A stretch of DNA of 64,000 nt from Actinomycetes bacterium (lineage in GTDB: Bacteria; Actinomycetota; Acidimicrobiia; Acidimicrobiales; Acidimicrobiaceae): the NCBI GenBank assembly GCA_021805205.1, contig JAJZFV010000046.1, positions 1-64,000 on the forward strand, given 5' to 3'. Shown here one piece after another: positions 9,149 to 58,529 of this stretch (positions are counted from its first letter, which is position 1; every line of letters starts with the position of its first letter). The notes under the pieces were generated by a model. It was not told the origin of the DNA. It ran no database searches and was given only the letters and a program-made list of their open reading frames with translations. Made by a program: the position numbers and the translations under genes.

Positions 9149-9196
9149 CCTATGGAATATGGAGGAAAAATTTACATATAAAGCGGCAGTAATCCA

Positions 9197-32421: not shown

Positions 32422-32700
32422 TTATCCCTTCTCGTAGAGCTCGGCTCGTTTCGACAGTACCTCCAAATGGTTACCTTCGTGAACATCGTGTGGAGTGACG
32501 AACTTTAGAGCACTATGGCGATGGTGGTAGTTGTAGTAACTGACAAACTTCTCCACCCAGATTCGACTATCTGTAAGACTTTCAAATCCTCCATAGGGAT
32601 AACCTGGCCAGTACTTGGTTGTACGAAAGAGCGCTTCGATGTGAGGGTTGTCATCTGATATGTAAAGGCCGAGAGTTAGAGGTGGTGATCCCCATCTTGT
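32422..32700 (-). pseudogene. IS3-family transposase (OrfB) C-terminal fragment
   Basis: Only the end of an rve/DDE integrase domain remains: 'YISDDNPHIEALFRTTKYWP', then 'YYNYHHRHSALKFVTPHDVH'. The catalytic Glu (in IEALF) and the HRHS motif are present, but the two Asp residues and the N-terminal half are missing, and the frame upstream of about 32700 is unrelated. It cannot be active. It points away from a second fragment on the other strand (head-to-head). Confidence 0.8.
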
Positions 32701-32815
32701 AACAAAGCTCCAGTAGAGACAATGGGTCTCCCTTGAAGGGTTGGTCACTTGTTGAGTACTTATATGAGCTAGATGTAAATATATCGAGGTCACGGCCTCG
32801 GGTATCAAATGATAA

Positions 32816-43892: not shown

Positions 43893-44138
43893 TTGCTCGT
43901 TCTAACTCGCCGAATCAACCAAAGCATCGTGGTCTCGGACAATATCGTAATAACTATCCTAGATATCCATAGAGATCAAGTAAGAGTCGGTATAACTGCA
44001 CCACGTGACGTAGAAATCCACCGCGAAGAGGTTTATTTGGCGGTAAAAGCTGCAAATGAAAAGGCCGCAATGGAAGTTGCGACCTTAGGTATAGATATAA
44101 GTATCATCCCAGCTCCGGCAGAGGAAGCCAAAGAGTAA
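43893..44138 (+). CDS. csrA: Carbon storage/translational regulator CsrA
   Basis: 81 residues. 'MLVLTRRINQSIVVSDNIVI' and 'VRVGITAPRDVEIHREEVYL' are the complete CsrA signature, including Arg44-type RNA-binding residues. CsrA blocks translation of mRNAs with GGA in the ribosome site, classically flagellin (hag) in Bacillus, and is sequestered by FliW. TTG start with AAGGAGG upstream. Its stop codon is directly next to the stop of fliW on the opposite strand. Confidence 0.96.
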   Translation: MLVLTRRINQSIVVSDNIVITILDIHRDQVRVGITAPRDVEIHREEVYLAVKAANEKAAMEVATLGIDISIIPAPAEEAKE

Positions 44139-44633
44139 CTAAGGCTGCTTTCGATCCTCTGCCCTTAACGCAAGTGCTACCGGGTGGTTTACCGAGTAAT
44201 TGGAGTCCACCTGGACCACTTGAGCAGCCAACTTGCTCTTGGAATTTACCACAAGGGGTCCAAGCATATTAACGCTTGGCATTCCTCCGCTTTGCAATGT
44301 AACTATTAGAAATACGATGCACTCTTCGGCGTTTTCAACCCCGAGAAGACTCTGGGAGTAGTCATCCACATGAACTGGATAGTCGTCGACTACAAAACGT
44401 GGCTCAACAACTATCAAGGCTAACTCTGATGTCAAAGATCGCAAAACCATATAGGGACGGTAGTCGTCTCCAAGATCCAAAAGAGCAAACTTGCGCTCTG
44501 CAAAGAAGCCGGGCATCCCCTTTGGCATCGTAATTTCTGCTACGATCTCGTAGCTCGGCTTTACAGTCTCCATCGGCTTACCCGTCTCTTCACCGTCTTT
44601 GGTATCAAGAACATTAGACACCATCTTCTCCAT
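44139..44633 (-). CDS. fliW: Flagellar assembly factor FliW
   Basis: 164 residues. After ~25 extra N-terminal residues, the beta-barrel FliW pattern appears: 'ITMPKGMPGFFAERKFALLD', 'YMVLRSLTSELALIVVEPRF', 'VFLIVTLQSGGMPSVNMLGP', 'LVVNSKSKLAAQVVQVDSNY'. FliW binds CsrA and flagellin competitively, so it couples filament subunit level to translation. It is the last gene of the flgN-flgK-flgL operon and runs tail to tail into csrA with no gap. Confidence 0.93.
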   Translation of the reverse strand: MEKMVSNVLDTKDGEETGKPMETVKPSYEIVAEITMPKGMPGFFAERKFALLDLGDDYRPYMVLRSLTSELALIVVEPRFVVDDYPVHVDDYSQSLLGVENAEECIVFLIVTLQSGGMPSVNMLGPLVVNSKSKLAAQVVQVDSNYSVNHPVALALRAEDRKQP

Positions 44634-44640
44634 TCTACTT

Positions 44641-45522
44641 TTAGTTTAAATAAGTCGCCAATGATGGCTGTGCAACCTTGGCCGTCGCGTAAAGAGTCAC
44701 CTGATAATTCGACATAGCCTGTTGATACTGAGTAGTAACAGCAGCTACGTCGACGCTTTGAATTCCACCTAGTTGGTTCGACAACGTCTGTTGGGTCAAG
44801 GTGGTCTGCTGTGAGATGGAGGTCATCTCTTGAAACTGAGATCCGATCTGCCCCGCCGAAGACTGAATATTTGAAAATGCAGCGTCAAACTTTGCGATGT
44901 CACTTTGAAGATTGGCCGGCGAACCACTTGATAGGTCAGTTACGATCTGATTGAGCGCAACTATCATATTTGAGCCACCACTACCACCTAAAGGATCGGT
45001 TACACTTGAAGGAAGCGAAACTCCCGGGGCAACGGTCCTAGTCGGGGAAGTAGTGTTTCCGAGGTAGTTACCACTTGAATCGTAAGCAGCTGTGGCACCT
45101 GATGTTCCACCAAAGATCGCAACTCCTAAGTACTGAGTGTTTGCCACATCCATGAGAGACTGCAGGTTACCATTTAGCGATGTTGCTATTGCTTTTATAG
45201 AAGCAGGAGGGAGCGATGAATTGCCTGCCGAGAGCAGAGTTGCCCGAGCTTGCTGCATAATGTTCACGGCACTCGACATAGCTCCGTTTGCAACACCCAA
45301 CATCGCTAGACCGTCCTTAGCATTTGCAATCATCTGACTTGACCGAGCCAATGCACTCTGGACGTCAAGTAAGTTGTTGACCTGGGTTGGATTGTCACTC
45401 GGTTTGGAGATGTTCATCCCAGAGGCGAGTAGCTGCTGCAAGTTGGTCAGGTTACCTTGATCTTGTTGCACCGAATTTATGAGCATCTGTGCAAGTGAGG
45501 TATTTGCTATTCTGTCAGTCAT
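44641..45522 (-). CDS. flgL: Hook-filament junction protein FlgL (HAP3)
   Basis: 293 residues. Flagellin-like N-terminus 'MTDRIANTSLAQMLINSVQQ', 'LASGMNISKPSDNPTQVNNL', and C-terminal helix 'TTQYQQAMSNYQVTLYATAK' match FlgL, which joins hook to filament above FlgK. It starts 5 bases after flgK and ends 7 bases before fliW. The sequence is close to family length, with a small central variable region. Confidence 0.95.
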   Translation of the reverse strand: MTDRIANTSLAQMLINSVQQDQGNLTNLQQLLASGMNISKPSDNPTQVNNLLDVQSALARSSQMIANAKDGLAMLGVANGAMSSAVNIMQQARATLLSAGNSSLPPASIKAIATSLNGNLQSLMDVANTQYLGVAIFGGTSGATAAYDSSGNYLGNTTSPTRTVAPGVSLPSSVTDPLGGSGGSNMIVALNQIVTDLSSGSPANLQSDIAKFDAAFSNIQSSAGQIGSQFQEMTSISQQTTLTQQTLSNQLGGIQSVDVAAVTTQYQQAMSNYQVTLYATAKVAQPSLATYLN

Positions 45523-45527
45523 TTTCG

Positions 45528-46910
45528 TTATACCGTCGCAATCATCGATTGGATAATTGATGCCACAGTCGCAATCACCTTCGCCGAAGCCTGGTAGGCG
45601 TTTTGGTAGTTAACCATCTTCACCAATTCTTCATTGGTATTTACGCCCGCAACGCTGGCCAAGGCAGTAGATGCACTTTGAGACTGCGATGTCGCAGTTC
45701 CTAGAGTGCTCTTGGCAGTACTGACGTCTAACCCGACACCAGCCACGGCCAAGGTATATTGAGCGTCCGGAGGATTTGGCTGCGAGCCAAGCGCCGCCAC
45801 ACTAGACGCAATAGAACCATCCAACGGGGAATTGTTGTTAGTGGCGGTTGCAATTAAGTTGGGGTTTGATATGACCGCGGAGTTTATGGTTATGTTTTGC
45901 GCAGTAATGGTCGTGCCTGAGCCCGCAGTAAATAGATCGACTCCCTTTGGGGCAGTTCCGGTCGAAGCGTAGCCATAGCCGGCGGTCAATTGGTTGTTTA
46001 TCGCAGTAGCTAGGTTCGATGCAAACGAGTCGAGCTGACTGGAATACTTCGGCAGCGAGACGTTGAGCGCAGATAGCGATCCACCTATAGAACCCGACGT
46101 AACCGGCAAAGTTGCACCCGTTAGTCCAGAGACTATCGAGACCGGGGTAGTTCCAGTGGCTGGCATCGGTGGCGCCGTAGCGGCAGAGACGCTAAGGGTA
46201 TCTGCCATATTTGTATTGGCTAGGGTTATCCCACCCGAAAGAAGAGTTACTGATCCATCTGAATTGGTCTGCACCGTGGCACCGATAGCATCAGTGATCG
46301 AGTTGATGATCTGGTTCCGCTGATCGATTAGGGTATTGGCCCCAGAGCCCCCCTGATATTGAACTATCTGTTGGTTCAGTGATTCAACCTGGGCTAGCTG
46401 CTTATTGATAGCATCCACCTGAGATCCCACCTGAGCCACTGTAGTGTTGTAAAGATTGATGAGGCCTTGGCTATTGGAGTTAAGCGTCGTCGTTAATTGC
46501 CCAGCAGTCGTTAGCAAGGAGTTGCGAGCTGTAGTTAAATTCGGTTGATTGGAGAGCGTGTCAAAGGCGTTCCAAAGATTAGAGAGCTGCTCATTTACCC
46601 CAACTGGCGATGGCTCTTGGAAGTAGTTCTGTGCTGTTGAGACCGCCGAGTAGTAGGATTGAGCCGCTTGCTGCGATGCCGAAGATACGCGTGCCGTGGT
46701 CTGGAGAAATTGGGAGGTAATCTGCGAGATGGAGCTCACCGTTACCCCGCTACCGGTCCCAGTACCTGGAGTTACGATATCGGAGAGGTTGGCGGTTTCG
46801 CGAGTGTAACCAGGAGTATTGGCATTTGCTACGTTCTGGCTTACGGTGTCCAATCCTTGGGATTGGGCAAGGATCCCAGAGAGGCCGATATAGAGGCTGG
46901 AATTACTCAT
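45528..46910 (-). CDS. flgK: Hook-filament junction protein FlgK (HAP1)
   Basis: 460 residues. 'LYIGLSGILAQSQGLDTVSQ' and 'NVANANTPGYTRETANLSDI' in the N-terminal rod domain and the C-terminal 'NEELVKMVNYQNAYQASAKV' are diagnostic. The middle Ser/Thr/Gly-rich region is moderately short. It caps the hook and accepts FlgL. Four-base overlap with the flgN-like gene upstream. Confidence 0.95.
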   Translation of the reverse strand: MSNSSLYIGLSGILAQSQGLDTVSQNVANANTPGYTRETANLSDIVTPGTGTGSGVTVSSISQITSQFLQTTARVSSASQQAAQSYYSAVSTAQNYFQEPSPVGVNEQLSNLWNAFDTLSNQPNLTTARNSLLTTAGQLTTTLNSNSQGLINLYNTTVAQVGSQVDAINKQLAQVESLNQQIVQYQGGSGANTLIDQRNQIINSITDAIGATVQTNSDGSVTLLSGGITLANTNMADTLSVSAATAPPMPATGTTPVSIVSGLTGATLPVTSGSIGGSLSALNVSLPKYSSQLDSFASNLATAINNQLTAGYGYASTGTAPKGVDLFTAGSGTTITAQNITINSAVISNPNLIATATNNNSPLDGSIASSVAALGSQPNPPDAQYTLAVAGVGLDVSTAKSTLGTATSQSQSASTALASVAGVNTNEELVKMVNYQNAYQASAKVIATVASIIQSMIATV

Positions 46911-47392
46911 ATGCGTCCATCGACTAGAGAGATGGTTGTATCTCGAAACCTTTTGCCATCTCGTCCATATATCGAAGTCGGATTCGATGAATCCAACAAA
47001 GAGAGGACCTCGTCGGTTACGGCTATGCGTTGAGCTAGAAGACGAGATAGCCTCTCTTTGATCTCAGCTACGGTAGTTGTGGCTGATATCAAATTGGAGC
47101 GCTGCTCCATCAAGATTGTCTTCCAGGGCTCTGGGGCAAGTTCAGCGATCTTGGCCAATGGGGTCAATGGATCCAGATCGAGCGTAATGCATATGTCGGC
47201 TGAGACGACTCCTCGCCGAAGTTCAGCCTCTTTTATTGCTCCGAGCGCTTCATTAACTTCAGCTGTTGCGCTCATCAAATAACTATGTCTATTTCCTTCG
47301 ACAAGCAAGTACTCGGCGTCGAGTCGATACACCAACTTGTCCAGTAACGAAACTTCGTACTCTAGGACGTTAGATAGGTCGGAATAGTTCAT
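46907..47392 (-). CDS. flgN: FlgN-like export chaperone for FlgK/FlgL
   Basis: 161 residues, almost entirely helical: 'LSNVLEYEVSLLDKLVYRLD', 'NEALGAIKEAELRRGVVSAD', 'ATTVAEIKERLSRLLAQRIA'. This is the plan of FlgN, the cytoplasmic chaperone that delivers FlgK and FlgL to FlhA. The gene stands directly before flgK and overlaps it by 4 bases. A perfect GCCGATAA box lies 8 bases before the ATG. Sequence similarity to FlgN is low, as usual in the family. Confidence 0.78.
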   Translation of the reverse strand: MNYSDLSNVLEYEVSLLDKLVYRLDAEYLLVEGNRHSYLMSATAEVNEALGAIKEAELRRGVVSADICITLDLDPLTPLAKIAELAPEPWKTILMEQRSNLISATTTVAEIKERLSRLLAQRIAVTDEVLSLLDSSNPTSIYGRDGKRFRDTTISLVDGRI

Positions 47393-47399
47393 GTGGTTC

Positions 47400-47407
47400 T
47401 TATCGGC
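47400..47407 (-). promoter_or_regulatory. Sigma-28 -10 box directly before flgN
   Basis: GCCGATAA (47407-47400 on the minus strand) is identical to the consensus -10. The -35 at N15 reads TTAG rather than TAAA. The predicted start is within a few bases of the flgN ATG at 47392, so the message would be leaderless or nearly so. Confidence 0.5.
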
Positions 47408-47455
47408 AGCGAAAATATAAACCTAAAAAATTCAACTAATTCGGAAAATAATTCT

Positions 47456-48799
47456 TCACTTTGCAAGCATGCGTACTATTAGGGCTGGACGATGGCCATA
47501 GATCAGGAGTCCGTATCCCGGTGAAAGGCTTCGAAGCTCCCCATTTGCAAGGAGTTTATCGCCTCGGTCTCTATCTGCTTTAATTCGATTGCTTTTTACT
47601 TGACGATTTACCCCACTTATTTGTGACGCTAAATTGATAGTCAAGGGATCGCTTATGCCCCCCAAAAAAAGCTTTGCTCGATGGTTGTTCACGATCGACA
47701 TTGCACTGTCGTGGTATCGATGTGACAACTGAGCAAAGTCCTGATAGATAGAGATAACTTGGCCTCCGAATGAGGCGATCGTCGACACTACTTCATCGAG
47801 GTTGGCAACTGGAGCCAAGTTGGCCGCTTCATCAAAGACGAAAAGAGTCCTAGTTGAGCCCTGATTTGCATATATCTTGTCAAAGATGGTGGAGAGCAAA
47901 GTAGCAAACAACTGCCCCGCTTCAACCTGTCGGGTTGGAGGAGCAATGAGGTAGATGGTCATAGATTCTACCGATGGATCAAGGGTGGCAAGGTTCACCG
48001 CCTCTCCATCATTGGAAAAGCGCATCATATGAAATGGCTCGAGATATGCCTCTAAGGTCGTGACCGTAGATGATACGATCTTTTCATCCTCGGAAAAGAT
48101 CGCCAAAAGCCTCGCAAGTGATATCTGTTCGCCTTCACTTTTTAGCAATTGTCTAGGTTGCTCAAAGCTTCCCTCTTCTACCCAAGTCATCAACTCAACC
48201 AAGGAGCGACCTCCCACGAAAGCGGCGTGTAACAGCGATTCGAGAAGGCGAGCGGCTAGGGTCGCCCAAAACTTCGACTCCGAAGTACCTCCGGAAACTG
48301 CCATATTCGATGTAATAAGTGTCGCAATTCTCCTCCTCGATAGAGGGTCGCCCGACAGTGCTATCGGATCAAACTGACAATTTCCGTGGCTAGACGTTCC
48401 AAAGGGATCAAATACGTAGACTAGGCCGTACCTCTCTCTGTTGAGGTGGGTCGCCTCAAATAGGTCGCTCTTGACACTCGAGATAACGGCACTTCCTTCT
48501 CTAAATTGGACAATTGCTGGTATCGCGAGGCGTGATGTTTTGAAGGATTGGGTAGGACCAAAGACGCAGAGGGAATCCCGCTTCGCAAGCGAAATCTTCC
48601 GACCCCAAACGGTAGCTATTGATATAGAAGGATCGGGTTGCCTAAATTCCGAAAGGTTACTCAATTGCGAAACCGACCATCCTCCACGACTGGGCGACTT
48701 TGAGTTATTCGCACCACCGCTACTTCTTCTATCGCCAGATGAGACGATGTAGACGATCGCCAGAACAAAGCCAAAAACAATTGCAAATTGACCTTTCAT
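47456..48799 (-). CDS. Type IV coupling protein-like ATPase (VirD4/TraG)
   Basis: 447 residues. A membrane segment near the N-terminus, then a Walker A-like loop 'CVFGPTQSFKTSRLAI' in which the invariant Gly before Lys is Phe. Walker B and later motifs are good: 'FVFDEAANLAPVANLDEVVS', 'SIYQDFAQLSHRYHD', 'HRAKLFLGGISDP'. T4CPs pump substrate DNA or protein into a type IV channel. ATG 48799, with AAAGGAG upstream, is preferred over TTG 48826. Last gene of the T4SS-like operon; no relaxase or relaxosome gene accompanies it. Confidence 0.85.
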   Translation of the reverse strand: MKGQFAIVFGFVLAIVYIVSSGDRRSSGGANNSKSPSRGGWSVSQLSNLSEFRQPDPSISIATVWGRKISLAKRDSLCVFGPTQSFKTSRLAIPAIVQFREGSAVISSVKSDLFEATHLNRERYGLVYVFDPFGTSSHGNCQFDPIALSGDPLSRRRIATLITSNMAVSGGTSESKFWATLAARLLESLLHAAFVGGRSLVELMTWVEEGSFEQPRQLLKSEGEQISLARLLAIFSEDEKIVSSTVTTLEAYLEPFHMMRFSNDGEAVNLATLDPSVESMTIYLIAPPTRQVEAGQLFATLLSTIFDKIYANQGSTRTLFVFDEAANLAPVANLDEVVSTIASFGGQVISIYQDFAQLSHRYHDSAMSIVNNHRAKLFLGGISDPLTINLASQISGVNRQVKSNRIKADRDRGDKLLANGELRSLSPGYGLLIYGHRPALIVRMLAK

Positions 48800-48822
48800 T
48801 TCGAGGTTGGCTCCTTTCGTAT

Positions 48823-49956
48823 TCAACGGCTTTTATCGAGGTCCACCAAGGCGATTCGATCTTTAACCACCCAAAGAGCTGTTCCAACTGAAAGATCAAC
48901 GATCACATCGGCCAATGAGTGCGATACTCCTAGAGCCTTTACGAATTGAAGCGCATCGTCTACTCCTTGGCGAAATGTCACAAAGATCTCTACTGCACCC
49001 ATGAGGCCAGATCCGACTGATGATCGTTGCAGATCACCTATGGAGTGAGTTACAGCAATATTGGATACCTTTACTCCTCTAGCTAGCTTGAAGTAGCGCT
49101 CAATCCAACTAGCTATCTCGGGGTTATCTAAAAGTGCCCACAGTTCATCGATGCCCACCATCGATACCTCCGATACTCCTGCCAATTTGGCACTTCTAAG
49201 TGAAGCAAGAACAAGGGCGACCCTAAGAGAGAGGTGGTCCGAGGCCATGTGATCCGAGAGATCCACAACTCCCCCACGCGTAATTACCTCAAAGGAGTCT
49301 TCGCTCCCCGGGGAGACAGAAGAGATCAATTTGCTCTTTTTCAATTGACTACAGGCCGAGATTAAAGGATCGAGATCACCAATTCGATAGTGGCCGCGCC
49401 ATTGGGCAGGACCACGGCAATCGTCGAGATACTCTAATTTTTCAATAAGGAGGTCGATATTGGCCTCACTCGCCATCGACTGCACGCACTCCCACAGGGC
49501 AGCGATCTCCATCTCAGCCAGTCGGCGTCTAAGACCATAGGCGCATGCGACACTAGCTATCTCGAAGTTGGAGTCCCGTATCGCAACTCTTCCGTGGTGA
49601 GGAAATAAGGGATTGATTGGTCGATCGAGAAAGTTGCACCCCAGCCCCGACATCCGCCCTTTTACGTCACCTTTGGGATCAAAGTAGATTGATCTTTTCT
49701 TCTGACCCTTGTAAAGCAAAGATTCAAGAAGTAACGACTTGCCCTGGCCCAGTGAGCCAAAGATCAGGATATTGGGAGACGATATAACGCCGTCTGCCAT
49801 CAATGCATCGATATCGAATTTATAGTGGCCACCAAAACGAGATCTACCAAGAATTTCACCATCAACATCATCGAACCACTGTCCAAAGGGAGCGGCGAAT
49901 TGTGCTGCGGAGATAATCGATTCGGTCAAATAACGAGTAGCCCTCTTTTGAACCAT
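48823..49956 (-). CDS. VirB4-like conjugation ATPase
   Basis: 377 residues. Intact P-loop 'ILIFGSLGQGKSLLLESLLY' near 60-78, followed by 'KKRSIYFDPKGDVKGRMSGL', and Walker B 'VSMVGIDELWALLDNPEIAS' with the acidic pair. The C-terminal 'VTHSIGDLQRSSVGSGLMGA' is typical of the VirB4/TrbE AAA+ motor. It is much shorter than classical VirB4 (~800), lacking most of the N-terminal domain, and resembles the compact actinobacterial form that partners SCO6880-type proteins. Four bases separate it from the preceding SCO6880-like gene. Confidence 0.85.
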   Translation of the reverse strand: MVQKRATRYLTESIISAAQFAAPFGQWFDDVDGEILGRSRFGGHYKFDIDALMADGVISSPNILIFGSLGQGKSLLLESLLYKGQKKRSIYFDPKGDVKGRMSGLGCNFLDRPINPLFPHHGRVAIRDSNFEIASVACAYGLRRRLAEMEIAALWECVQSMASEANIDLLIEKLEYLDDCRGPAQWRGHYRIGDLDPLISACSQLKKSKLISSVSPGSEDSFEVITRGGVVDLSDHMASDHLSLRVALVLASLRSAKLAGVSEVSMVGIDELWALLDNPEIASWIERYFKLARGVKVSNIAVTHSIGDLQRSSVGSGLMGAVEIFVTFRQGVDDALQFVKALGVSHSLADVIVDLSVGTALWVVKDRIALVDLDKSR

Positions 49957-49959
49957 CGG

Positions 49960-51177
49960 TTACACCGCCACCGGATTTATATGCTCCCACGTCTCTCGCA
50001 AAGTGCCGGCGAATCCGTGAAGTCGAATCGAGCAATCTGCTTTAGCGCTAACTGATACGTTTGTCTCAAATGAACTATTTGCCACCAAGTAAAAGGCGAA
50101 GTTTGCGCCAAGTACCTCATTCGACAGATCGGCTTCGGCCTCTTCTAGAGCTCTAGCTGACTTGATAAGCGCCATCGACCGTGAAAACCCCTTCGAGTTT
50201 CGCCAAAGAACCTTGGCGTCGATACGACTTCGGCGAGCTCGAATAGATGCTGCATATCTTTGCTGGTTTACCGAAGATAGTTCGATAATTAGCGCCCTTA
50301 TCGACGATATTTTCGCGAAAAGCGAGAATATTTCTCCAAATCCTCCAGAAAATCTTCCAAAGTCAGTAACCCCCCAAAGTTGGTAGCGTCCGCCCCTAAC
50401 GACGATGGCGTTGATTCGATAGCGTATTCCTCGGGAGTCCCCCTCTTCGAAGAAGTGCTCAGAACAGAAGAGGGCGATCTCTTGTCGATTCAGTACCTTA
50501 AAGCTCGCGATCTCCAAGTTCGAGGCCATGGTTCGAATCAAATCACCTTCGATCCCTCCTATAAATTCCCTGTCGTGGCCACTAAAGCTCGCTACCAAGT
50601 GGCTTCGAATCCCAGATCGAGGAAGCGTTTCATCGCGACTATGAATGATTCGTAACTTTGCACCTTCGCGACTTGTGATCTCAAGTAAGCGCTCTATCCA
50701 CTGTGCTGTAGCCATAAAACGCTCCTTCTCGTCGTCGAAGAGTAACTGAGGTGGCCGCTTGGCTTGGAAACGAATCACAATTAAACCTCGTCGATCCTCG
50801 GCAGCGAAACAGTTAGCCTTACCTCTAAATCTCCTACCTGGAGCGAAGAGACGACGACTTTGGCTCGCCCGCCTTTTGCAGTCATTTGCTACAAATCTTT
50901 CCAAGTTGGGTTCTTTAAAGCTACAGATGAGACTCCTGGCAGTGGAGCACAAAAGACCAGAGGCGATAAATTGTGTACTTCTACCCTGATAGATCGGAGC
51001 CATCAATGCAACAGACGTCGCGATTAGCGCCAAGCCAAGGCCCAGATTAACCACTCCAAATAAGGTCAGCACCGCAATTAATCCAGCAAATGCGGCCACG
51101 AGCGTGGCTAGTAGGTTTGTATTTGCCACCCGAATTCGAGTTGCGAATTGAAAGTCACTTAGAACGTACCGTCTCAT
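49960..51177 (-). CDS. SCO6880-like T4SS membrane protein
   Basis: 405 residues. Two TM helices near 20-60 ('LLATLVAAFAGLIAVLTLFG', 'GLGLALIATSVALMAPIYQG'), as in PrgI/SCO6880 proteins of actinobacterial conjugative elements, then a long soluble domain. In the second domain I do not see catalytic motifs; in other actinobacteria this protein partners the short VirB4 ATPase and supplies the domain it lacks. It is rich in Arg and Ser. Name by context and layout, from family knowledge; similarity cannot be scored here. Confidence 0.7.
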   Translation of the reverse strand: MRRYVLSDFQFATRIRVANTNLLATLVAAFAGLIAVLTLFGVVNLGLGLALIATSVALMAPIYQGRSTQFIASGLLCSTARSLICSFKEPNLERFVANDCKRRASQSRRLFAPGRRFRGKANCFAAEDRRGLIVIRFQAKRPPQLLFDDEKERFMATAQWIERLLEITSREGAKLRIIHSRDETLPRSGIRSHLVASFSGHDREFIGGIEGDLIRTMASNLEIASFKVLNRQEIALFCSEHFFEEGDSRGIRYRINAIVVRGGRYQLWGVTDFGRFSGGFGEIFSLFAKISSIRALIIELSSVNQQRYAASIRARRSRIDAKVLWRNSKGFSRSMALIKSARALEEAEADLSNEVLGANFAFYLVANSSFETNVSVSAKADCSIRLHGFAGTLRETWEHINPVAV

Positions 51178-51187
51178 CTATCTCCTC

Positions 51188-52144
51188 CTACCCAACATTC
51201 GATGAGCCACCTCCTCGATGCAGCGGGATCTTGGAGCGGTTCGACCTTTCATCCAAATTGGGGGTTGCCACTGCGATCGCTGCATCTGCAATTGAGACGA
51301 TTCGCTGATTAGCAAGGTCGGTCAACTTACTCGGCAGCCCCTCGATTTGCCGTAGCGTTGCCCCTTCTAGGCCAAAGAAGAGTCGTAGCAGCAGTAACGG
51401 GGAGGTTACGACGGCAAACAACAGTGCAGTGGCTTCGATCACGCCGAACAAGTGCCCCTTGGTAGAGGTAACCGATGCCAACGAAAGTCCAAGCCCAACT
51501 ACAAGCTTGAAGGCTTCTAGCGTTGCAAACACCGAAAGTAAGCGCCCTACTACTTGGCGCCCTGCTCTAAGTGAGTAAAACGGTGCCACAAAAGGAACCA
51601 TCGCCACAGCAAAATAGATAAAGGCGTTTCTAAGTGCAAGTTCAATAGTCAACGTAAGTGCAGCTATTGAAAAAGACAAAGCCAATGCCGCACCCAATAG
51701 AGGATTTATCGATGTCGTCGTCGTTAGATTCACAATTAGGTCAACCTTCGACGACTGAGTAAAGGACCCATATGCGACAGCAACCAGATAGTTGGTTATT
51801 GAAAACAACTTGAGCGTTATGGTTGGAATGATAAATATCACGGGCAATGACGCACAGGTGGTTATCACTTTCCCCAAGCGAAGAGGCTCTTCGCGTGAGA
51901 GGAGTGACCTAATGACATAGATAAGGAGCGCCATCAAAGCGAAGGCGGCCGATAACTGCGATAATCGATAATAGGAACTTAGAAACCATGATGACCCTAT
52001 TTGAGGATCGGGAAGGTTAGAAAAGACCAGGAATACAAGGTGCGCAAGGGTTGAATCGAGCGAGAAAACCCCTTTGAGGATAGAGTTCCCAATGGAATCC
52101 ACAACCGCGTTCGCGATCGACGATGTGAGAGAGGCCAGCATCAT
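51188..52144 (-). CDS. VirB6/TrbL-like polytopic membrane protein
   Basis: 318 residues with about seven hydrophobic segments ('LAHLVFLVFSNLPDPQ', 'LSAAFALMALLIYVIRSLLS', 'LPVIFIIPTITLKLFSITNY', 'AALALSFSIAALTLTIELAL', 'AFIYFAVAMVPFVAPFYSLR'). This architecture matches the VirB6/TrbL family, the membrane channel component of type IV secretion systems. The C-terminal ~45 residues are a Ser/Arg/Gly cytoplasmic tail. It lies 10 bases after the small pilin-like gene and 10 before the SCO6880-like gene. Confidence 0.75.
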   Translation of the reverse strand: MMLASLTSSIANAVVDSIGNSILKGVFSLDSTLAHLVFLVFSNLPDPQIGSSWFLSSYYRLSQLSAAFALMALLIYVIRSLLSREEPLRLGKVITTCASLPVIFIIPTITLKLFSITNYLVAVAYGSFTQSSKVDLIVNLTTTTSINPLLGAALALSFSIAALTLTIELALRNAFIYFAVAMVPFVAPFYSLRAGRQVVGRLLSVFATLEAFKLVVGLGLSLASVTSTKGHLFGVIEATALLFAVVTSPLLLLRLFFGLEGATLRQIEGLPSKLTDLANQRIVSIADAAIAVATPNLDERSNRSKIPLHRGGGSSNVG

Positions 52145-52154
52145 TTGGAGTTAA

Positions 52155-52454
52155 TCATCTGACGCTTTGGCCCATATGAAAGAAGAAGTTCACAACCGAG
52201 GGCGCCGCTCCAACGAGCAAAGAGGCAAGTCCAGAAGCCAAGAGAGTCTTTCTGCCATTATAGGTTTGCTGGTAGTTGCCAGAGTGCGAACCTACAGCCC
52301 ACATTGCTGCACCTACCAATAACCCCATAAGGGTAGCCACCAGTGCCCATGCCGAAAGACCATTTGTAATAGAAATGAGTGCACTAGATCCAGGAAGAGA
52401 TGATAAGGAGGGCGTAACCGATACGTCGAAAAGTAAATTACCAGACGTAGCCAT
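52155..52454 (-). CDS. Small two-TM protein, VirB2/DUF6112-like
   Basis: 99 residues from ATG 52454. Two TM helices: 'ALVATLMGLLVGAAMWAVGS' and 'LLASGLASLLVGAAPSVVNF', joined by a short basic loop with 'GNYQQTYNGRK'. This looks like DUF6112, a pilin/TrbC-position protein in actinobacterial conjugative elements. A TATAAT box lies 7 bases before ATG 52454, so this start (leaderless) is preferred to the upstream ATG at 52478, which lacks a ribosome site. First gene of the T4SS-like operon. Confidence 0.7.
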   Translation of the reverse strand: MATSGNLLFDVSVTPSLSSLPGSSALISITNGLSAWALVATLMGLLVGAAMWAVGSHSGNYQQTYNGRKTLLASGLASLLVGAAPSVVNFFFHMGQSVR

Positions 52455-52461
52455 ATGTATG

Positions 52462-52467
52462 ATTATA
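52462..52467 (-). promoter_or_regulatory. TATAAT -10 box for leaderless T4SS-like operon
   Basis: TATAAT on the minus strand (52467-52462), 7 bases before ATG 52454. There is no obvious TTGACA at -35. It supports a leaderless transcript for the operon 52454-47456. Confidence 0.55.
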
Positions 52468-52552
52468 GACTGTTTCATACAATTTTGCTAGTTTTCATTA
52501 GAAAATATCTTATGAATGCCGTTAACTCAATCTTTACCTTGCACGTATATCG

Positions 52553-53638
52553 TTGAGTAGACATTCGATTGAGGAGCTAGCGGTAAGCAAAGTGGCGATG
52601 GAAGGAAACACATTCAATTCAAACGACGCCTATAGCGTCTCTCTATTGGAGGCGGCACTTGAAAGCGTAGCAAGTGCGATCTTCGTCTTCAATGAGGAAG
52701 GTAACCTGAGCTTTGCAAATCAAGTCGCACGCGATCTTTCTTTGGCACGCCACGAAGAGGCCGGGCTGATGAAGGTAGTCGATGACGTAAAACTAGCAGC
52801 CTTAGATGGAACCTTCCAGGAACTTGAGTTTTCACTCTACGGCCCTCCCAAACGTGACTTTACAATTCGTACCTCAGCTCCTTTTGGGAACCGCGACGGC
52901 GGCGTTATAGTAACGATCGAAGATTTGACCACCCGCAACCAGCTCGACATTATTCGTCGTGACTTTGTGGCCAATGTCAGCCACGAGCTGCGGACTCCAA
53001 TTGGTGCATTAGGGCTACTAGCCGAGACTCTTGCCTTTGAAGATGATGCTTCGGTTCGCCATCGTCTCGCCAATAGGATTCAAAATGAGGCATTTAGAGT
53101 GGCAAAGATCATCGACGATCTTCTCGATCTATCTAAATTTGAATCTGAAGGATCAAAGAACGAAGATGAAATATCAATCGTTGACCTTGCACTCGACGTG
53201 ATAGAGAACATAAACCCTACAGCTGAAAACGCCTCCGTCAAGGTAACGCTCGAGGCCGGAGAAGGGGACTTCAACATAGTCGGCGATCCAATTCAACTTC
53301 GATCTGCTCTAACCAATTTGATCGATAACTCTATTAAATATTCAGAGGCCAACTCCGAGGTCATAGTTGCAGCATCCGAGGAAGGCGACTATGTGGTAAT
53401 TTCCGTGACTGACCACGGAATCGGAATTCCACAAAAAGACCTCGATCGAATCTTTGAACGCTTTTATAGGGTCGATCAAGCAAGGTCACGCCAGACTGGC
53501 GGCACTGGACTTGGACTTTCGATCGTGCGCCACGCCGTGAGCAACCATGGCGGCACAATCGAAGTCGAATCTCGTGAAGGCATCGGATCGACATTCAGAA
53601 TCAAACTACCGCGAAATCGAAAAGGGGACGAGAAATGA
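52553..53638 (+). CDS. Sensor histidine kinase with PAS domain (SenX3/PhoR type)
   Basis: 361 residues. PAS-like domain (~30-125: 'LESVASAIFVFNEEGNLSFA'), HisKA with phospho-His in 'FVANVSHELRTPIGALGLLA', and HATPase_c with 'LIDNSIKYSEANSEVIVAAS', 'DHGIGIPQKDLDRIFERFYR' and 'GGTGLGLSIVRHAVSNHGG'. No membrane segment is visible, unlike SenX3/PhoR, so sensing is cytoplasmic or TMs are lost. The TTG start 52553 is uncertain; GTG 52592 or ATG 52598 are alternatives. It overlaps the response regulator gene by 4 bases. Confidence 0.9.
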   Translation: MSRHSIEELAVSKVAMEGNTFNSNDAYSVSLLEAALESVASAIFVFNEEGNLSFANQVARDLSLARHEEAGLMKVVDDVKLAALDGTFQELEFSLYGPPKRDFTIRTSAPFGNRDGGVIVTIEDLTTRNQLDIIRRDFVANVSHELRTPIGALGLLAETLAFEDDASVRHRLANRIQNEAFRVAKIIDDLLDLSKFESEGSKNEDEISIVDLALDVIENINPTAENASVKVTLEAGEGDFNIVGDPIQLRSALTNLIDNSIKYSEANSEVIVAASEEGDYVVISVTDHGIGIPQKDLDRIFERFYRVDQARSRQTGGTGLGLSIVRHAVSNHGGTIEVESREGIGSTFRIKLPRNRKGDEK

Positions 53639-54342
53639 ACAAACCTTCAACAACGGTTTTGATCGCTGAGGACGAGGAGTCATTTGTAGATGCGATTACT
53701 CTCGGTCTAAGAAAAGAAGGGTTTAACGTCGAGATAGCTAGGGACGGACGCGAAGCTCTCGATCAATTCGAACTCGTCTCTCCCGACGTAATATTGCTCG
53801 ATGTGATGCTTCCAAAGATTTCAGGCATAGATGTTTGCAAGACGATACGAAACACCAGCCAAGTGCCAATAATTATGGTTACCGCCCGTACAAGCGAACT
53901 CGATACCGTAGTTGGGCTCGAAGTTGGCGCGGATGATTACGTAGCGAAGCCGTTCCGCATGAGAGAGCTAACAGCACGAATTCGCGCCGTACTCAGGAGA
54001 GCTCCTTCTTCGCCTCAAAACGAAGATGAAGAAGAGCTTCTCGAGATCGGGGAGATCACTCTCGATACAGCTCGCCATGAACTCCGAGTCAAAGGTGCTC
54101 CAGTGGCTCTCCCATTGAAAGAGTTCGAGCTACTCGAACTTTTGATGTCGAATCCAAATCGGGTAATGACCCGCGATATGATCATCGACAGAGTGTGGGG
54201 GCCGTATCACACCTCCGATACCAAGACCCTAGACGTTCACATCAAAAGGCTAAGAACCAAGATCGAGCCAGACCCAGCGAATCCAACGTACATCTCTACT
54301 GTCAGAGGACTAGGATACAGATTCGAAGTTATACCTAAATAG
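53635..54342 (+). CDS. OmpR/PhoB-family response regulator (RegX3-like)
   Basis: 235 residues. Receiver domain with 'VLIAEDEESFVDAITLGLRK', phospho-Asp in 'VILLDVMLPKISGIDVC', Thr in 'IIMVTARTSELDTVVGLEVG', Lys in 'YVAKPFRMRELTARIRAVLR'. Winged-helix DNA-binding domain: 'LPLKEFELLELLMSNPNRVM' and 'DVHIKRLRTKIEPDPANPTY'. Its ATG overlaps the kinase stop (ATGA). Together they look like a SenX3-RegX3/PhoR-PhoB phosphate-sensing pair, but no pst/phoU genes are adjacent, so the regulon is unknown. Confidence 0.94.
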   Translation: MNKPSTTVLIAEDEESFVDAITLGLRKEGFNVEIARDGREALDQFELVSPDVILLDVMLPKISGIDVCKTIRNTSQVPIIMVTARTSELDTVVGLEVGADDYVAKPFRMRELTARIRAVLRRAPSSPQNEDEEELLEIGEITLDTARHELRVKGAPVALPLKEFELLELLMSNPNRVMTRDMIIDRVWGPYHTSDTKTLDVHIKRLRTKIEPDPANPTYISTVRGLGYRFEVIPK

Positions 54343-54372
54343 GGCGGTAAAAGATCTCTTACGATAAAGCCA

Positions 54373-54806
54373 ATGGGGGCGGGCGGTCTCGCCTCGGAAG
54401 CCTAAGGGCCACCCCGGCACGTCTTGCAGTACTCAAGTGCATCGAGGATGCAAAGGGGCACGTGACGGCAGATGAGATCTTCGAGGCGATAGTCGTCGAC
54501 GAACCTGAGATCGCACTCTCTACGATATACCGTGCACTCGATGCCCTCGAGGACGTCGGAGCAATCCAGCACATTCACTTAGGACATGGTAAAGCCGTCT
54601 ACCACTTGGATGAGTCGGTACACCAGCACCTCGTTTGCGAACGATGCCAAAAAACCCTAGAAGTTCCAGAAGATTTCTCACAGCGAATGGAGATTGAACT
54701 TCACGCGCGCCTTAACTTCCACGTCAAGGCGCATCACTTTTCTATTTTGGGACTGTGCGACGATTGTTTCGAAGCAGAGGTATCAACCCATAATCAACAG
54801 GCATAA
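54373..54806 (+). CDS. Fur-family metalloregulator with apparent frameshift near start
   Basis: Winged helix 'LRATPARLAVLKCIEDAKGH', 'TADEIFEAIV', 'STIYRALDALEDVGAIQHIH', then metal/dimer domain with 'ESVHQHLVCERCQKTLEVPE' and 'LGLCDDCFEAE' (two CxxC sites). The frame encoding the first helix has no ATG/GTG/TTG before GTG 54462, which would cut off the DNA-binding helix. The only nearby ATG (54373) is in another frame, followed by a run of five G. One extra G would join it to the good frame and give ~144 residues, a normal Fur length. Either a sequence error or a real lesion. Overlaps the convergent next gene by 13 bases. Confidence 0.75.
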
Positions 54807-56194
54807 TCCTGATCCACCGTTGCCAAACCACCATTTGCGGCAACAACGTTGGTGTAGCCGATCTGTACCAGCCATGGTATGCCACCACCGAATATTTCAC
54901 TAGGATCAGTACACGACTGCGCCGTACCACCCGCTACCCAGAGAGGGGTATTTACAATAAGGTTGCCGGTGATAATGCCCCACTGATATGCAGTTGAATA
55001 GACGCCGACCGTAACCCCAACCGATCTCAAGAAGGCTATAGCTCCTAGAACCACTTGACTATTCACATTTTGATCTGCGGACCAAAGGTAAGGATTACCT
55101 TTCTCTACATCAAGCCACCAAAGCTTTGAGGTAACGCCGAGTTGCGCATTTGAGTTATAGGAGTTAGAAGTTATGTTCCAACCGTAGTTGTATGCTTGGC
55201 AGGCTTGACTATTGGGATCTGTAGTACTTGCGGCACAACTGGCATCCGGACCCTGAAGGGTGTTCGTTGGATCAACGGAAGATGACGGAGGTGCCCAGAG
55301 TGGTTGGTAGATATCGACACGTGACGAGGCCGATGAAAACTTCTTGGTCTGATCGACGATGCAATTATTTGATTGGAATGTGGATTGGTAGGAGGCACCC
55401 ACCCCGTAGGTATTGATACCAGTTCCAACTATGGCATATTGACCCACATTCTGGCTAGCTAATCCGCTATTAGGTGATGTCGTTCCTGTGCATTGGAATA
55501 GGGAGACGTCGATACCAAATGAGCCGCTTTGATATGGGCTATTTGTTGGGACGGCGACGATACCGACCACTGGACTGGATAGAGCAAGGCTCGCAGCAGC
55601 CCCCAAAAATGGGGCATTGAAAGAAAATATACCTCCGTCAGATGCGACCAGCCAGTAACCTCCAGTTTGAGGATCTGCAGCCATACCGACGATCGGCTTA
55701 TTGAGCGTAATGCCACCAGTCGAGCCGTAGAACTGAGCATCGCCAAAGGAGAAGATTCCACCGTCAGATGCGACCAGCCAATAGCCTTTACCATCTGGAG
55801 TGCTCGCCATACCGACGATCGGCTTATTGAGCGTAATGCCACCAGTCGAGCCGTAGAACTGAGCATCGCCAAAGGAGAAGATTCCACCGTCAGATGCGAC
55901 CAGCCAATAGCCTTTACCATCTGGAGTGCTCGCCATACCGACGATCGGCTTATTCAAGGTCAGACTTCCAGTCGAGCCCTCGTAGCTAGAACCACCGTAG
56001 TTGAAGATGCCACCATCTGATCCAACCAAGTCATAGGAAAAGTTGGCTGAAGAAGAGCTAGCGAGGGCGACTTTAGCCCCAAACTGCCGAACTTGATATG
56101 GCGCTCTCGAAGCCACAGTGGCACCTTCAAAAAGTGCCAATAGAAGTGTCAACAAGGAAAGTAATCTACCGACTTTTATGAATCTAAATCTCAT
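54794..56194 (-). CDS. Secreted repeat protein with GH25-like domain
   Basis: 466 residues. N-terminal signal/TM segment (~8-28). Residues ~50-210 hold four copies of a ~42-residue beta repeat with 'GYWLVASDGGIFSFGDAQFY', a repeat widespread in acidimicrobial surface proteins. The C-terminal half has a GH25/DUF1906-like barrel: 'FGIDVSLFQC', 'LWWLDVEKGNPYLW' with the D-x-E pair, and 'VGVYSTAYQWGIITG'. It may cleave peptidoglycan or bind the cell wall. Two of the repeats are perfect DNA copies. Convergent with the Fur gene. Confidence 0.78.
   Translation of the reverse strand: MRFRFIKVGRLLSLLTLLLALFEGATVASRAPYQVRQFGAKVALASSSSANFSYDLVGSDGGIFNYGGSSYEGSTGSLTLNKPIVGMASTPDGKGYWLVASDGGIFSFGDAQFYGSTGGITLNKPIVGMASTPDGKGYWLVASDGGIFSFGDAQFYGSTGGITLNKPIVGMAADPQTGGYWLVASDGGIFSFNAPFLGAAASLALSSPVVGIVAVPTNSPYQSGSFGIDVSLFQCTGTTSPNSGLASQNVGQYAIVGTGINTYGVGASYQSTFQSNNCIVDQTKKFSSASSRVDIYQPLWAPPSSSVDPTNTLQGPDASCAASTTDPNSQACQAYNYGWNITSNSYNSNAQLGVTSKLWWLDVEKGNPYLWSADQNVNSQVVLGAIAFLRSVGVTVGVYSTAYQWGIITGNLIVNTPLWVAGGTAQSCTDPSEIFGGGIPWLVQIGYTNVVAANGGLATVDQDYAC
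55686..55937. repeat. Perfect 126-base tandem duplication
   Basis: Two adjacent identical 126-base units (55686-55811 and 55812-55937), each encoding 42 residues of the surface repeat. Flanking units are diverged. Identity at every synonymous site points to recent duplication or gene conversion. Confidence 0.92.
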
Positions 56195-56256
56195 CGGATA
56201 CGAGAATAATCGTCAAAACAACCGTGACACACAAGCGAAGAAAAAACTAATTTTTT

Positions 56257-56667
56257 TTAAAGCGTTCCCTTGTAGGTCACTATGGTAATCGTACCAACTA
56301 CAAACAAAGCTGCAGAAAGGCTATACATAAAAGCCTTTGCGAATGCCCTGCGTCGTGGTGTTCTAATGTAGTCATCCATAATGAATCGCAATCCATTAGA
56401 ACCGTGCAAAAGACCAAGAGCCAGTAGAAGCCAATCGAAAACACGCCAAAGAGGGTTAGCCCATCTTTTAGCTACGAATGCAACCGTAGTGGTCGTAACA
56501 TCATTGAAGATGTGAGTGATCGAGAAGTGAATAAGAGCAAGAAAAAAGAGGACCAGTCCGCTGATTCTCATAAAGAACCAAGACCAGGTTTCAAAGTTCG
56601 CTTTACTTCTCTTCATCGTCGTTGAGTTACGACGTTGGTTGTTGAAAGATTTTTCGCGCAATGCCAC
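56257..56667 (-). CDS. sdhD: Succinate dehydrogenase membrane anchor SdhD-like
   Basis: 136 residues with three TM helices (about 28-48, 67-85 and 105-128). The His in 'VLFFLALIHFSITHIFNDVT' and Asp/Tyr in 'GLRFIMDDYIRTPRRRAFAK' fit the heme b and quinone site of the SdhD/cytochrome b small anchor. It follows the SdhC gene by 4 bases. SdhA and SdhB, usually adjacent, are not downstream here: the next gene on this strand is an unrelated surface protein 62 bases on. The first ~15 residues are likely extra. Confidence 0.82.
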   Translation of the reverse strand: MALREKSFNNQRRNSTTMKRSKANFETWSWFFMRISGLVLFFLALIHFSITHIFNDVTTTTVAFVAKRWANPLWRVFDWLLLALGLLHGSNGLRFIMDDYIRTPRRRAFAKAFMYSLSAALFVVGTITIVTYKGTL

Positions 56668-56671
56668 TTAG

Positions 56672-57046
56672 TTACACCCTTCCAGTGAAGAACGGCTTCA
56701 AGATGATAACTCCGCCTACGACTGTAAGCAGCAAGGAGAGAGAGAACATCGCAACAAATAGACGTTTCTCATTTTTGATAACTCCAGGGAAAAAGTCGAT
56801 CATGATAACTCTCAGCCCATTTAGCGCGTGATAGGTCAGGCCAAAGAGGAGGCCGACTTCAAATGTTCGCATGAAGACATTGCCGTAGAGACGGTGAATC
56901 GAAGCGTAGACATTTGGGAAGTTGATCGTCGAGATATCGATGATGTGAAGGAGTATGAACATCAGAATTAAAAATCCTGAGATCCTATGGAGCACAAAAG
57001 CCCACTGGCCCGTCTTTCCCTTATAAACGGTCGATCGCGTACTCAT
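56672..57046 (-). CDS. sdhC: Succinate dehydrogenase cytochrome b556 subunit SdhC
   Basis: 124 residues, three TM helices. 'GQWAFVLHRISGFLILMFIL' and 'LHIIDIS' carry the conserved Arg/Ser and His of the heme/quinone site; 'LTYHALNGLRVIMIDFFPGV' carries the second heme His. It anchors the succinate:quinone oxidoreductase and passes electrons to quinone. Preceded by a 42-residue membrane peptide that overlaps its start by 4 bases. Confidence 0.9.
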   Translation of the reverse strand: MSTRSTVYKGKTGQWAFVLHRISGFLILMFILLHIIDISTINFPNVYASIHRLYGNVFMRTFEVGLLFGLTYHALNGLRVIMIDFFPGVIKNEKRLFVAMFSLSLLLTVVGGVIILKPFFTGRV

Positions 57047-57171
57047 CGACTACCTCTTCTAACCCAACGATTTCCCCACATGGTGGTCGACACGACAAAT
57101 ACCCCAAAGGCGATAACTGTCAGCGTCACCACACCGAGGCCGATTGCAAAAATTACCTGAGACGTGTTCAC
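57043..57171 (-). CDS. Single-TM small protein before sdhC (42 aa)
   Basis: GTG start at 57171, ending in ATGA overlap with sdhC. It consists of one TM helix ('VIFAIGLGVVTLTVIAFGVF') and a basic C-terminus (NRWVRRGSR), orientation likely N-out. The longer frame back to 57336 lies inside serS and is not used. It may be an accessory peptide of the succinate dehydrogenase complex; it is too short for a family call. Only a weak ribosome site is visible. Confidence 0.5.
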   Translation of the reverse strand: MNTSQVIFAIGLGVVTLTVIAFGVFVVSTTMWGNRWVRRGSR

Positions 57172-57221
57172 GATCTTCAAAGTTACCCTATAACTAGGTG
57201 ATAGCTCAAACCAGAATCGAT

Positions 57222-58529
57222 TTAGTGTCGGATTCTTTCCACGCCACCCATATACGGTTGAAGAACTTTGGGAATAGTCACACTTCCGTCCTCTTGCCGA
57301 TTTACCTCGATAAGTACCGCAAAGATGCGCGCCCAAGCAAGGGCTGAGCCATTCAGCGTATGGACGCTGTGAATTTCGCCACTCTCTTCATCGCGGTATC
57401 TGATATTTGCTCGTCTAGCTTGATAGTCACCGCACCAAGAGACCGACGAAGCCTCTAACCACCGATCTACTCCAGGAGAGTAGACCTCGAGATCGAAAGT
57501 TCTTCTAGAAGATTGGCCGATATCGCCGGTGCAAAGGTCGAGAACTCGATAGGTCAAGCCAAGGGAGCGAAGGATTCCTTCGGCGCGAGAGAGCATGTCG
57601 ACAAAGACCTCTTGGGACTGCTCCGGCTTGGAATAGACCATCAATTCAACCTTGTCGAATTCGTGTAATCGAAGCAAGCCTCTGGTATCTCGGCCGGCAG
57701 AACCTGCCTCGCGCCTGAAGCAAGGTGTGGATGCAGTCATCCTTATTGGAAGTTCTACTCCGTCGATTATCTCATCACGGGCCATCGAAGTTAGCGGTAC
57801 TTCAGCCGTTGGTATCGCCCAGAGATCATCCTTTTCAATGTGATAAGCCTCTTCACCAAATTTAGGTAGGTGTCCGGTCGAGATCATCGTCTCAGTCTTG
57901 ACAAAGGTTGGGGGATGAATTTCCAAAAACGCATCAGAGTGCTGATCTAAAGCGAAGGAAGATAGGGCCCGGAGTAACCTTGAGCCCAATCCCTTATACA
58001 TCGGGAACATGCTTCCGGATAACTTTGCACCTCGCTCGAGATCGAGGATGTCGAGCTCTTTGCCGATCTCCCAGTGTGGCTTTTTGGTATATTCGGGAAA
58101 GGCCAGTGGGGGAGCTATCTCGGATTCGCCGTCTTCTGGACTCCAATATCTCCTGATAACATTTTCATCTTCAGATAGTCCCAAAGGAGCATTAGGGTCT
58201 GGGAGATTTGGAACTACCAGCCAAAGATCACGACGCTGGCTCTCAATTTCAGACGCCTCTGCGGTTAGAGACTCGAGGCGCTCCCCGAGCTCTTTAGAGC
58301 GACTGCGTAGCTCTTCTCCACGCTCTCTATCTCCAGTCTTGAATGCCTCGCCGACTTGGCGCGACATCTCGTTTACTTCGCCGCGCAATTGATCTCGTTC
58401 CGCAACTGCGCGTCTGAGGCGCGAGTCGAGATCATAAAGATCTTTCACGACGGTAATATCTAAACCACGGCGCGAGAGGAGTTCAGCTGTCTCCTCGAAG
58501 TTTTCCCTAAGAGCCCGAATATCGATCAT
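57222..58529 (-). CDS. serS: Seryl-tRNA synthetase
   Basis: 435 residues. The N-terminal coiled-coil arm that grips the long variable arm of tRNA-Ser is visible (~30-105: 'LRRAVAERDQLRGEVNEMSR'). Class II motifs: 'TAEVPLTSMARDE', motif 2 'CFRREAGSAGRDTRGLLRLH', motif 3 'NGSALAWARIFAVLIEVNRQ'. It charges tRNA-Ser (and tRNA-Sec if present). It runs divergently from the ABC exporter at 58557, with 27 bases between the starts. Confidence 0.97.
   Translation of the reverse strand: MIDIRALRENFEETAELLSRRGLDITVVKDLYDLDSRLRRAVAERDQLRGEVNEMSRQVGEAFKTGDRERGEELRSRSKELGERLESLTAEASEIESQRRDLWLVVPNLPDPNAPLGLSEDENVIRRYWSPEDGESEIAPPLAFPEYTKKPHWEIGKELDILDLERGAKLSGSMFPMYKGLGSRLLRALSSFALDQHSDAFLEIHPPTFVKTETMISTGHLPKFGEEAYHIEKDDLWAIPTAEVPLTSMARDEIIDGVELPIRMTASTPCFRREAGSAGRDTRGLLRLHEFDKVELMVYSKPEQSQEVFVDMLSRAEGILRSLGLTYRVLDLCTGDIGQSSRRTFDLEVYSPGVDRWLEASSVSWCGDYQARRANIRYRDEESGEIHSVHTLNGSALAWARIFAVLIEVNRQEDGSVTIPKVLQPYMGGVERIRH

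Follow-up and report, generated by a model that had tools for sequence, protein, structure and literature searches.

A chromosomal type IV secretion operon of Acidimicrobiales, with a relaxase and a second coupling protein encoded elsewhere, as a candidate domesticated exporter of DNA

The 64,000-nucleotide stretch analysed here (contig JAJZFV010000046.1, positions 1 to 64,000, assembly GCA_021805205.1, family Acidimicrobiaceae), called the window, carries a five-gene operon of the type IV secretion system (T4SS) kind. The best reading of the operon is as the channel of a conjugation-type exporter, domesticated and passed on vertically, that would send chromosomal DNA to other cells; from homology, synteny and trees the probability of this reading is put at roughly 0.58. 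Its domestication into the core chromosome with vertical inheritance is close to certain, since synteny across the order and the agreement of trees speak strongly for it, and on the same grounds a domesticated transport system rather than a conjugative element, as proposed in an earlier reading of the window (the sequence-only reading), is well supported. That reading had also named five same-strand genes, and the open reading frames (ORFs), profile matches and hydropathy bore out their identities:

52155-52478, minus strand: DUF6112 gene, VirB2/pilin-like, 107 amino acids (aa), two transmembrane (TM) stretches (PF19607 1.6e-9, hydropathy)
51188-52144, minus strand: VirB6-like (SCO6881-type) polytopic membrane protein, 318 aa (weak profile match, hydropathy, position)
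49960-51177, minus strand: SCO6880-type protein, 405 aa, two TM stretches and a VirB4 N-terminal-like part
48823-49956, minus strand: VirB4 ATPase, motor half, 377 aa, P-loop GSLGQGKS
47456-48826, minus strand: VirD4 coupling protein, 456 aa, one N-terminal TM stretch, altered P-loop GPTQSFKT

The five ORFs are uninterrupted, and neighbours overlap by 4 bases or sit 3-10 bases apart. The DUF6112 protein matched PF19607 above the Pfam cut-off and T4SS_pilin below it (1.3e-3); an internal ATG at 52454 gives 99 aa, the length of the orthologue at locus L035, and is probably the true start. Many TM stretches were revealed by hydropathy in the 318-aa VirB6-like protein, whose match to the SCO6881 family (1.4e-3) lies far under the cut-off. 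The 377-aa protein matched the VirB4 family under the cut-off and over its C-terminal half only (3.9e-7, profile positions 439-713 of 792). The VirB4 profile matched a solved VirB4-like structure (1.1e-23), and the P-loop glycine and lysine were intact in 94/94 and 93/93 sequences. The operon VirD4 matched T4SS-DNA_transf (PF02534) at 6.6e-23.

The 405-aa protein has its TM pair at residues 17-63. It gave no match of its own to NF042935 (SCO6880 family), being too diverged, and the other 28 of the 29 members of the order-wide alignment did match; the profile of this alignment found no match among solved structures. At L187 a VirB4 profile of 752 positions was matched at 200-362 by the SCO6880-type protein and at 414-729 by the gene that follows, and at L037 the SCO6880-type gene and VirB4 are fused in a single open frame. 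On these alignments a single VirB4 seems to have been divided between two genes, with the SCO6880-type protein (the 405-aa protein of the window) as its front half and the short VirB4 as the rest, so that the operon would consist of a pilin-like protein, VirB6, VirB3/VirB4 (in two genes) and VirD4. In Pfam, 13 of the 29 aligned SCO6880-type proteins also matched EccE, a protein of type VII secretion (best 2.6e-10), hinting at a common domain.

The ratio of nonsynonymous to synonymous substitution rates (dN/dS) of the operon genes was 0.03-0.31 where the synonymous rate (dS) was unsaturated, which indicates purifying selection; over-extended starts in some loci rich in G and C inflate these values. 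At one locus (L162:8324-11320) two tandem VirB4 frames share an identical beginning, a recent duplication or an assembly artefact.

Relatives of the window VirB4 were found in 41/60 related genomes and in 32/36 genomes of the family (own genome included). All 18 family loci contained VirB4, the SCO6880-type gene and VirD4, and 16/18 contained VirB6 and DUF6112 as well; the two others begin at a contig start. The identity of the operon proteins was 47-97% in the two closest species and about 25-45% elsewhere (DUF6112 50-67%). Beyond the family, the loci of named genomes were the best 80 of 233, a sample biased to similar sequences. Six of them were left out of the synteny and tree sets as duplicates of family loci, among them L131, which is not a duplicate and which is included in the P-loop counts (94 VirB4 and 78 operon VirD4 loci). 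All five genes were present in 39/45 named loci with room on the contig. The recurrence of all five genes in unchanged order in distant genomes rules out a chance arrangement.

The neighbours of the family loci are mostly constant, with a kinase, a response regulator and Fur on one side and often flagellar genes on the other. The window has this setting, with Fur also upstream of the operon and FlgK also downstream:

52553-53638, plus strand: histidine kinase, divergent from the operon (Pfam)
53635-54342, plus strand: response regulator of the kinase block (Pfam)
46907-47392, minus strand: flgN, first flagellar gene downstream (PF05130 5.6e-12), a neighbour specific to the family and probably outside the operon system

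The divergent kinase was found within 2.6 kilobases (kb) in 42/49 named loci having DUF6112 and at least 1.5 kb upstream. The seven without it were L139, L149, L153, L179 and L195, where a relaxase is divergent from the operon, L189, which is probably element-borne, and L204, from Egibacteraceae. By our reading, at least four of the first five also have a sigma-factor-like gene beside them.

The tree distances of VirB4 and VirD4 were compared with those of the flanking genes. Against kinase and regulator (39 loci) the correlation r was 0.56-0.86, and against serS (23 loci) it was 0.71 and 0.85; none of 2000 permutations reached these values in either comparison. Compared with the neighbouring proteins, those of the T4SS change at about double the rate.

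A contrast set was formed from the VirB4 loci of 20 of the 34 order genomes that carry the competence gene ComEC together with VirB4, and of 20 of the 90 that lack ComEC. The kinase/regulator block stood beside the operon in 15/20 ComEC-lacking loci vs 0/20 ComEC-bearing ones, serS in 7/20 vs 0/20 and a relaxase in 4/20 vs 1/20. An integrase was detected in 0/20 vs 3/20 loci (by two tyrosine recombinase queries; serine recombinases were not searched). In the VirB4 tree, one split with support 0.916 separated 79 chromosomal-type rows (71 distinct) from 20 ComEC-bearing rows. The SCO6880-kind T4SS of the ComEC-bearing set have the same gene kinds in the same order as the operon, but differ in lying off the kinase/serS site, in occurring sporadically within families and in falling on the other side of this split.

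The sequence-only reading had reported no integrase, and had held that a relaxase or integrase just outside with attachment sites, or absence from all close relatives, would point to a remnant of an integrative and conjugative element (ICE). Two tyrosine recombinase queries gave no match anywhere on the contig of the window, and an integrase-core (rve_3) fragment of an insertion sequence lies about 15 kb from the operon, between flagellar and other genes (32422-32808). No 13-mer was common to the two immediate flanks, the only way in which attachment sites were sought. No relaxase or integrase was found just outside, and 11/12 genus members have VirB4. An ICE remnant was rejected by synteny, trees and contrast set, and neither an integrase, by the queries used, nor sporadic inheritance was found.

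The absence of a relaxase, also claimed in the sequence-only reading, was true locally and not genome-wide. The search for TrwC-type relaxases, the one relaxase family looked for, gave none on this contig, either in the window or beyond it. In the own genome the single TrwC-type match is on another contig (G000:C5:248880-249464, E value 2.3e-26), within an 842-aa ORF. Such matches occurred in 34/36 family genomes and 50/60 relatives, element-borne ones included, and in all 32 operon-carrying named genomes tested; these 32 were drawn from the 80 loci, include one family member again (L133, from the cultured Ferrithrix thermotolerans DSM 19514) and six with a relaxase already known beside the operon. 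Of 19 fetched family relaxase loci besides the own one, 15 share at least one neighbour with it, the exceptions being three loci of genus g4 and one contig end. In 19/20 fetched order-level relaxase stretches, for which mostly shorter ORFs had been chosen, a gene resembling the WYL neighbour of the own relaxase was present.

The relaxase ORFs are 390-939 aa long and, except in the two closest species, share 15-24% identity with the own protein. The relaxase profile matched TrwC crystal structures (1.6e-33) over the relaxase domain and not the helicase, and the TrwC domain was present in 25/25 relaxases scanned. The motif-I tyrosine and the three HUH histidines were invariant, each in 38/38 relaxases. 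As a MOBF-type relaxase with intact catalytic residues and a second coupling ATPase are encoded elsewhere, at mostly syntenic chromosomal places, the system is probably not relaxase-free. Relaxase and VirB4 distances correlated at r=0.91 (34 genomes), above the correlation of either with the kinase (0.82, 0.84). After removal of the kinase signal the partial r was 0.71, above all 2000 permutations, to which shared rate effects of fast-evolving genes could add. It is quite probable that the relaxase belongs to the system of the operon.

A 14-base-pair (bp) inverted repeat (L087:9146-9159 and 9187-9200, on G000:C5) overlaps the relaxase start codon with one arm and is kept in the own genome, in G001 and, as 10 bp, in G008. 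It is a candidate origin of transfer (oriT), operator or start-masking hairpin. Repeats exceeding all 30 mononucleotide shuffles were also found at L089, L097, L098 and L253, with other sequences and in other places; at L254 the match fell on a run of N.

The own genome and its relatives carry a second VirD4-like gene. It lacks a TM stretch in the first 60 residues (0/19, vs 15/19 for the operon VirD4) and has its own conserved place, having been found in 19/20 fetched family loci, each with a shared neighbour. In 17/20 order-level loci this soluble VirD4 is convergent with and abuts the relaxase, and one of the other three lies at a contig edge. Its P-loop is intact in 36/36 sequences. From these sequence features we infer a division of labour between the two VirD4 proteins. 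In one genome (G009:C111:6582-7622) the second VirD4 carries a stop codon.

The distribution of competence genes was also analysed. ComEC was found in 0/36 family genomes and in 19/24 other relatives; the five ComEC-less genomes of other families are the five with DUF6112 over the cut-off, and the ComEC-bearing G036 has DUF6112 below it (9.9e-4). DprA was missing in 31/36 family genomes and present in 4/5 of the ComEC-less DUF6112 genomes of other families. Among 298 order genomes with a minimum completeness of 90% (own genome 89%), 90 had VirB4 without ComEC, 34 both, 25 neither and 149 ComEC only, an anticorrelation with a Fisher value of 5e-25 when phylogeny is ignored. The 51 families listed, which leave out the 25 genomes with neither, comprise 18 that are ComEC-less with VirB4 and 33 with ComEC, and none is mixed.

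In the proposed mechanism, the relaxase would nick the chromosome at some site and stay on the 5' end. The soluble VirD4 may then take the nucleoprotein and pass it to the membrane VirD4, and VirB4 with the SCO6880-type protein, VirB6 and the DUF6112 pilin would export the relaxase-bound single-stranded chromosomal DNA. The net effect would be that kin swap chromosomal DNA. Delivery into a contacted neighbour (mating) appears likelier than release for competence uptake, since ComEC and mostly DprA are missing in the family. A more ambitious version, which is tentative and would surprise us less if wrong than right, holds that a large part of Acidimicrobiales may have traded natural transformation for core-genome conjugation. 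Besides the T4SS channel, such a system would use a MOBF relaxase without a helicase and a coupling ATPase in two parts, the membrane VirD4, whose P-loop would be decaying, and the soluble VirD4 as motor; encoded at two or three loci, these would serve programmed chromosomal gene exchange among kin. In bacteria the system would then correspond to the archaeal Ced, but exporting and with a relaxase.

Several observations weigh against export of chromosomal DNA. The second P-loop glycine of the operon VirD4 was lost in 24/78 loci, with F, Y, Q, R, H or M in its place. No helicase Pfam family was found in the 25 relaxases, unlike TrwC/TraI, so only a MOBF-type relaxase domain and not a full TrwC can be spoken of. 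The relaxase dS was saturated and dN/dS was not obtainable. Some of the relaxase matches in the family and operon-genome counts may be element-borne, and the relaxases of genus g4 (three loci) and of G003 have no neighbour in common with the own genome. Syntenic-locus and element-borne relaxases did not form separate groups in the tree, and on this account a single relaxase origin was not upheld. The start-codon repeat was likewise rejected as a general oriT, being confined to three close species and not the rule in the 38 loci scanned. ComEC is present or absent family by family, a pattern that may stem from a few independent events, so the replacement of natural transformation by the operon is only a hypothesis. 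To these is added the phenotype of the Streptomyces cmd genes, taken up with the main rival explanation.

This main rival is a cell-biological role like that of cmd, in which the operon would be a membrane DNA pump or scaffold acting within the cell (in segregation, division or development) without transfer, and the relaxase would be unrelated or act in repair. It is unlikely, at about one chance in several. The Streptomyces clusters cmdABCDEF (SCO4126-4131) and SCO6871-6884 are likewise chromosomal, with SCO6880- and SCO6881-type genes and a VirB4-like ATPase, and cmdB, C and D are described as resembling SCO6878, SCO6880 and SCO6881 (PMC2782261). Which cmd gene equals which T4SS part is our own assignment. 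In that study, cmd deletion caused sporulation and segregation defects and left transfer of the tested plasmid unaltered (PMC2782261). A search of 396 phylum genomes gave a VirB4 match at or below 1e-60 in 62, of which 21 belong to the own order. A VirB4 copy at 280-291 bits was found in 19/19 listed genomes of a large-genome genus (g206), probably Streptomyces, and five of its loci (L307-L311) show a chromosomal VirB6-SCO6880-VirB4-VirD4 arrangement with no relaxase in the stretch. The 15 loci examined outside the order had neither a kinase/serS block nor a relaxase in the stretch, and one had an integrase. The tolerated P-loop change of the operon VirD4 also fits such a role. In Acidimicrobiales, however, genomes with the operon also keep the relaxase and the second VirD4, relaxase and VirB4 co-evolve, and the pilin-like DUF6112 is retained (all five genes in most complete named loci), whereas in Streptomyces a sporulation and segregation role is reported and no relaxase was found near the five probable Streptomyces loci.

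Protein secretion is less probable still; the operon would then be a relaxase-less T4SS recruited for effectors or surface proteins. A 2011 survey described actinobacteria as rich in relaxases with few T4SS and proposed that T4SS lacking a relaxase are often protein exporters (PMC3158045), and the relaxase indeed lies outside the operon in most loci. Against this stands the relaxase with intact catalytic residues in the same genomes, tracking VirB4, and no effector-like gene was noticed beside the operon in the gene lists, in which no effector search was made.

A shade less probable again is DNA import, in which the operon would stand in for the ComEC uptake channel as in the archaeal Ced/Ted systems. 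These are domesticated T4SS that import DNA and in which no relaxase is recognised, and the authors describing them knew of no other T4SS domestication for DNA transfer (PMC9905601). The likeness lies in a chromosomally domesticated minimal T4SS with VirB2-, VirB4- and VirB6-like parts, in weak CedB profile matches to VirB4 and in the lack of ComEC where the operon is chromosomal. But Ced/Ted are importers without a relaxase, whereas Acidimicrobiales keep VirD4 in the operon and a MOBF-type relaxase and second VirD4 at separate loci; the relaxase and two coupling proteins are parts of export systems, and DprA is mostly missing in the family. Very improbable are, lastly, integrative elements left as a remnant or reusing one site, for which the like gene kinds in element-like settings of ComEC-bearing genomes (some with an integrase) and the relaxase beside the operon in one family could be cited, but against which speak the agreement with the trees of flanking genes, the clean VirB4 split, the absence of integrase matches from the ComEC-lacking contrast loci, the lack of a flank repeat in the window and the presence of VirB4 in nearly the whole genus.

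The predicted export of chromosomal DNA by T4SS and relaxase has a likeness in the genetic island of Neisseria gonorrhoeae, which exports chromosomal DNA by these means (PMC12857230). That system differs in that its apparatus is F-like and is encoded on an island of a naturally competent host, whereas here core genes at scattered loci are found in actinobacteria largely without ComEC. The Patescibacteria also have a chromosomal monoderm-type T4SS kept across a large clade, but most of the clusters are reported to be without a relaxase, and co-option for other functions is suggested (PMC12102498); in Acidimicrobiales, by contrast, the relaxase is kept in trans. What sets the Acidimicrobiales system apart from the known ones is that relaxase and coupling ATPase are kept at loci of their own that are inherited vertically. 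No description of such a system in Acidimicrobiales was found in the open-licence literature, which is weak evidence.

The flagellar and regulatory setting described in the sequence-only reading is correct for the window, and its flagellar side is incidental: flgK, flgL or fliW occurred in 7 of the 47 named loci whose contig runs on for 2.5 kb or more past VirD4, and G027 keeps the operon with no FlhA match. A functional tie to flagella was rejected on these grounds. In G003 (L040:7047-7490) and G005 (L042:11311-11754) a FlgN-like gene persists behind VirD4 with no FlhA match and no adjoining flgK; its dN/dS was 0.17, with few changes. Nine loci (L139, L149, L153, L179, L195, L286, L292, L296 and L297) have a relaxase divergent from the T4SS operon, and their VirB4s form one clade. 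The four of known family all belong to f16, and at least four of the nine lie beside a sigma-factor-like gene. A protein with near-identical tandem segments and no Pfam match is encoded at 54794-56194 of the window and stands near the operon in the genus. An Rfam scan of positions 44000-58000 gave no match, and no tRNA genes were found in the window.

As a rule, the genes for conjugation belong to mobile elements. If the preferred reading of a chromosomal DNA exporter is true, bacteria too would have made conjugation a chromosomal gene-exchange system, as reported for archaea. The result also carries a warning that T4SS judged relaxase-less by their neighbourhood may have a relaxase elsewhere. 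For many uncultured soil and acid-mine actinobacteria, the same reading would provide a testable route of recombination.

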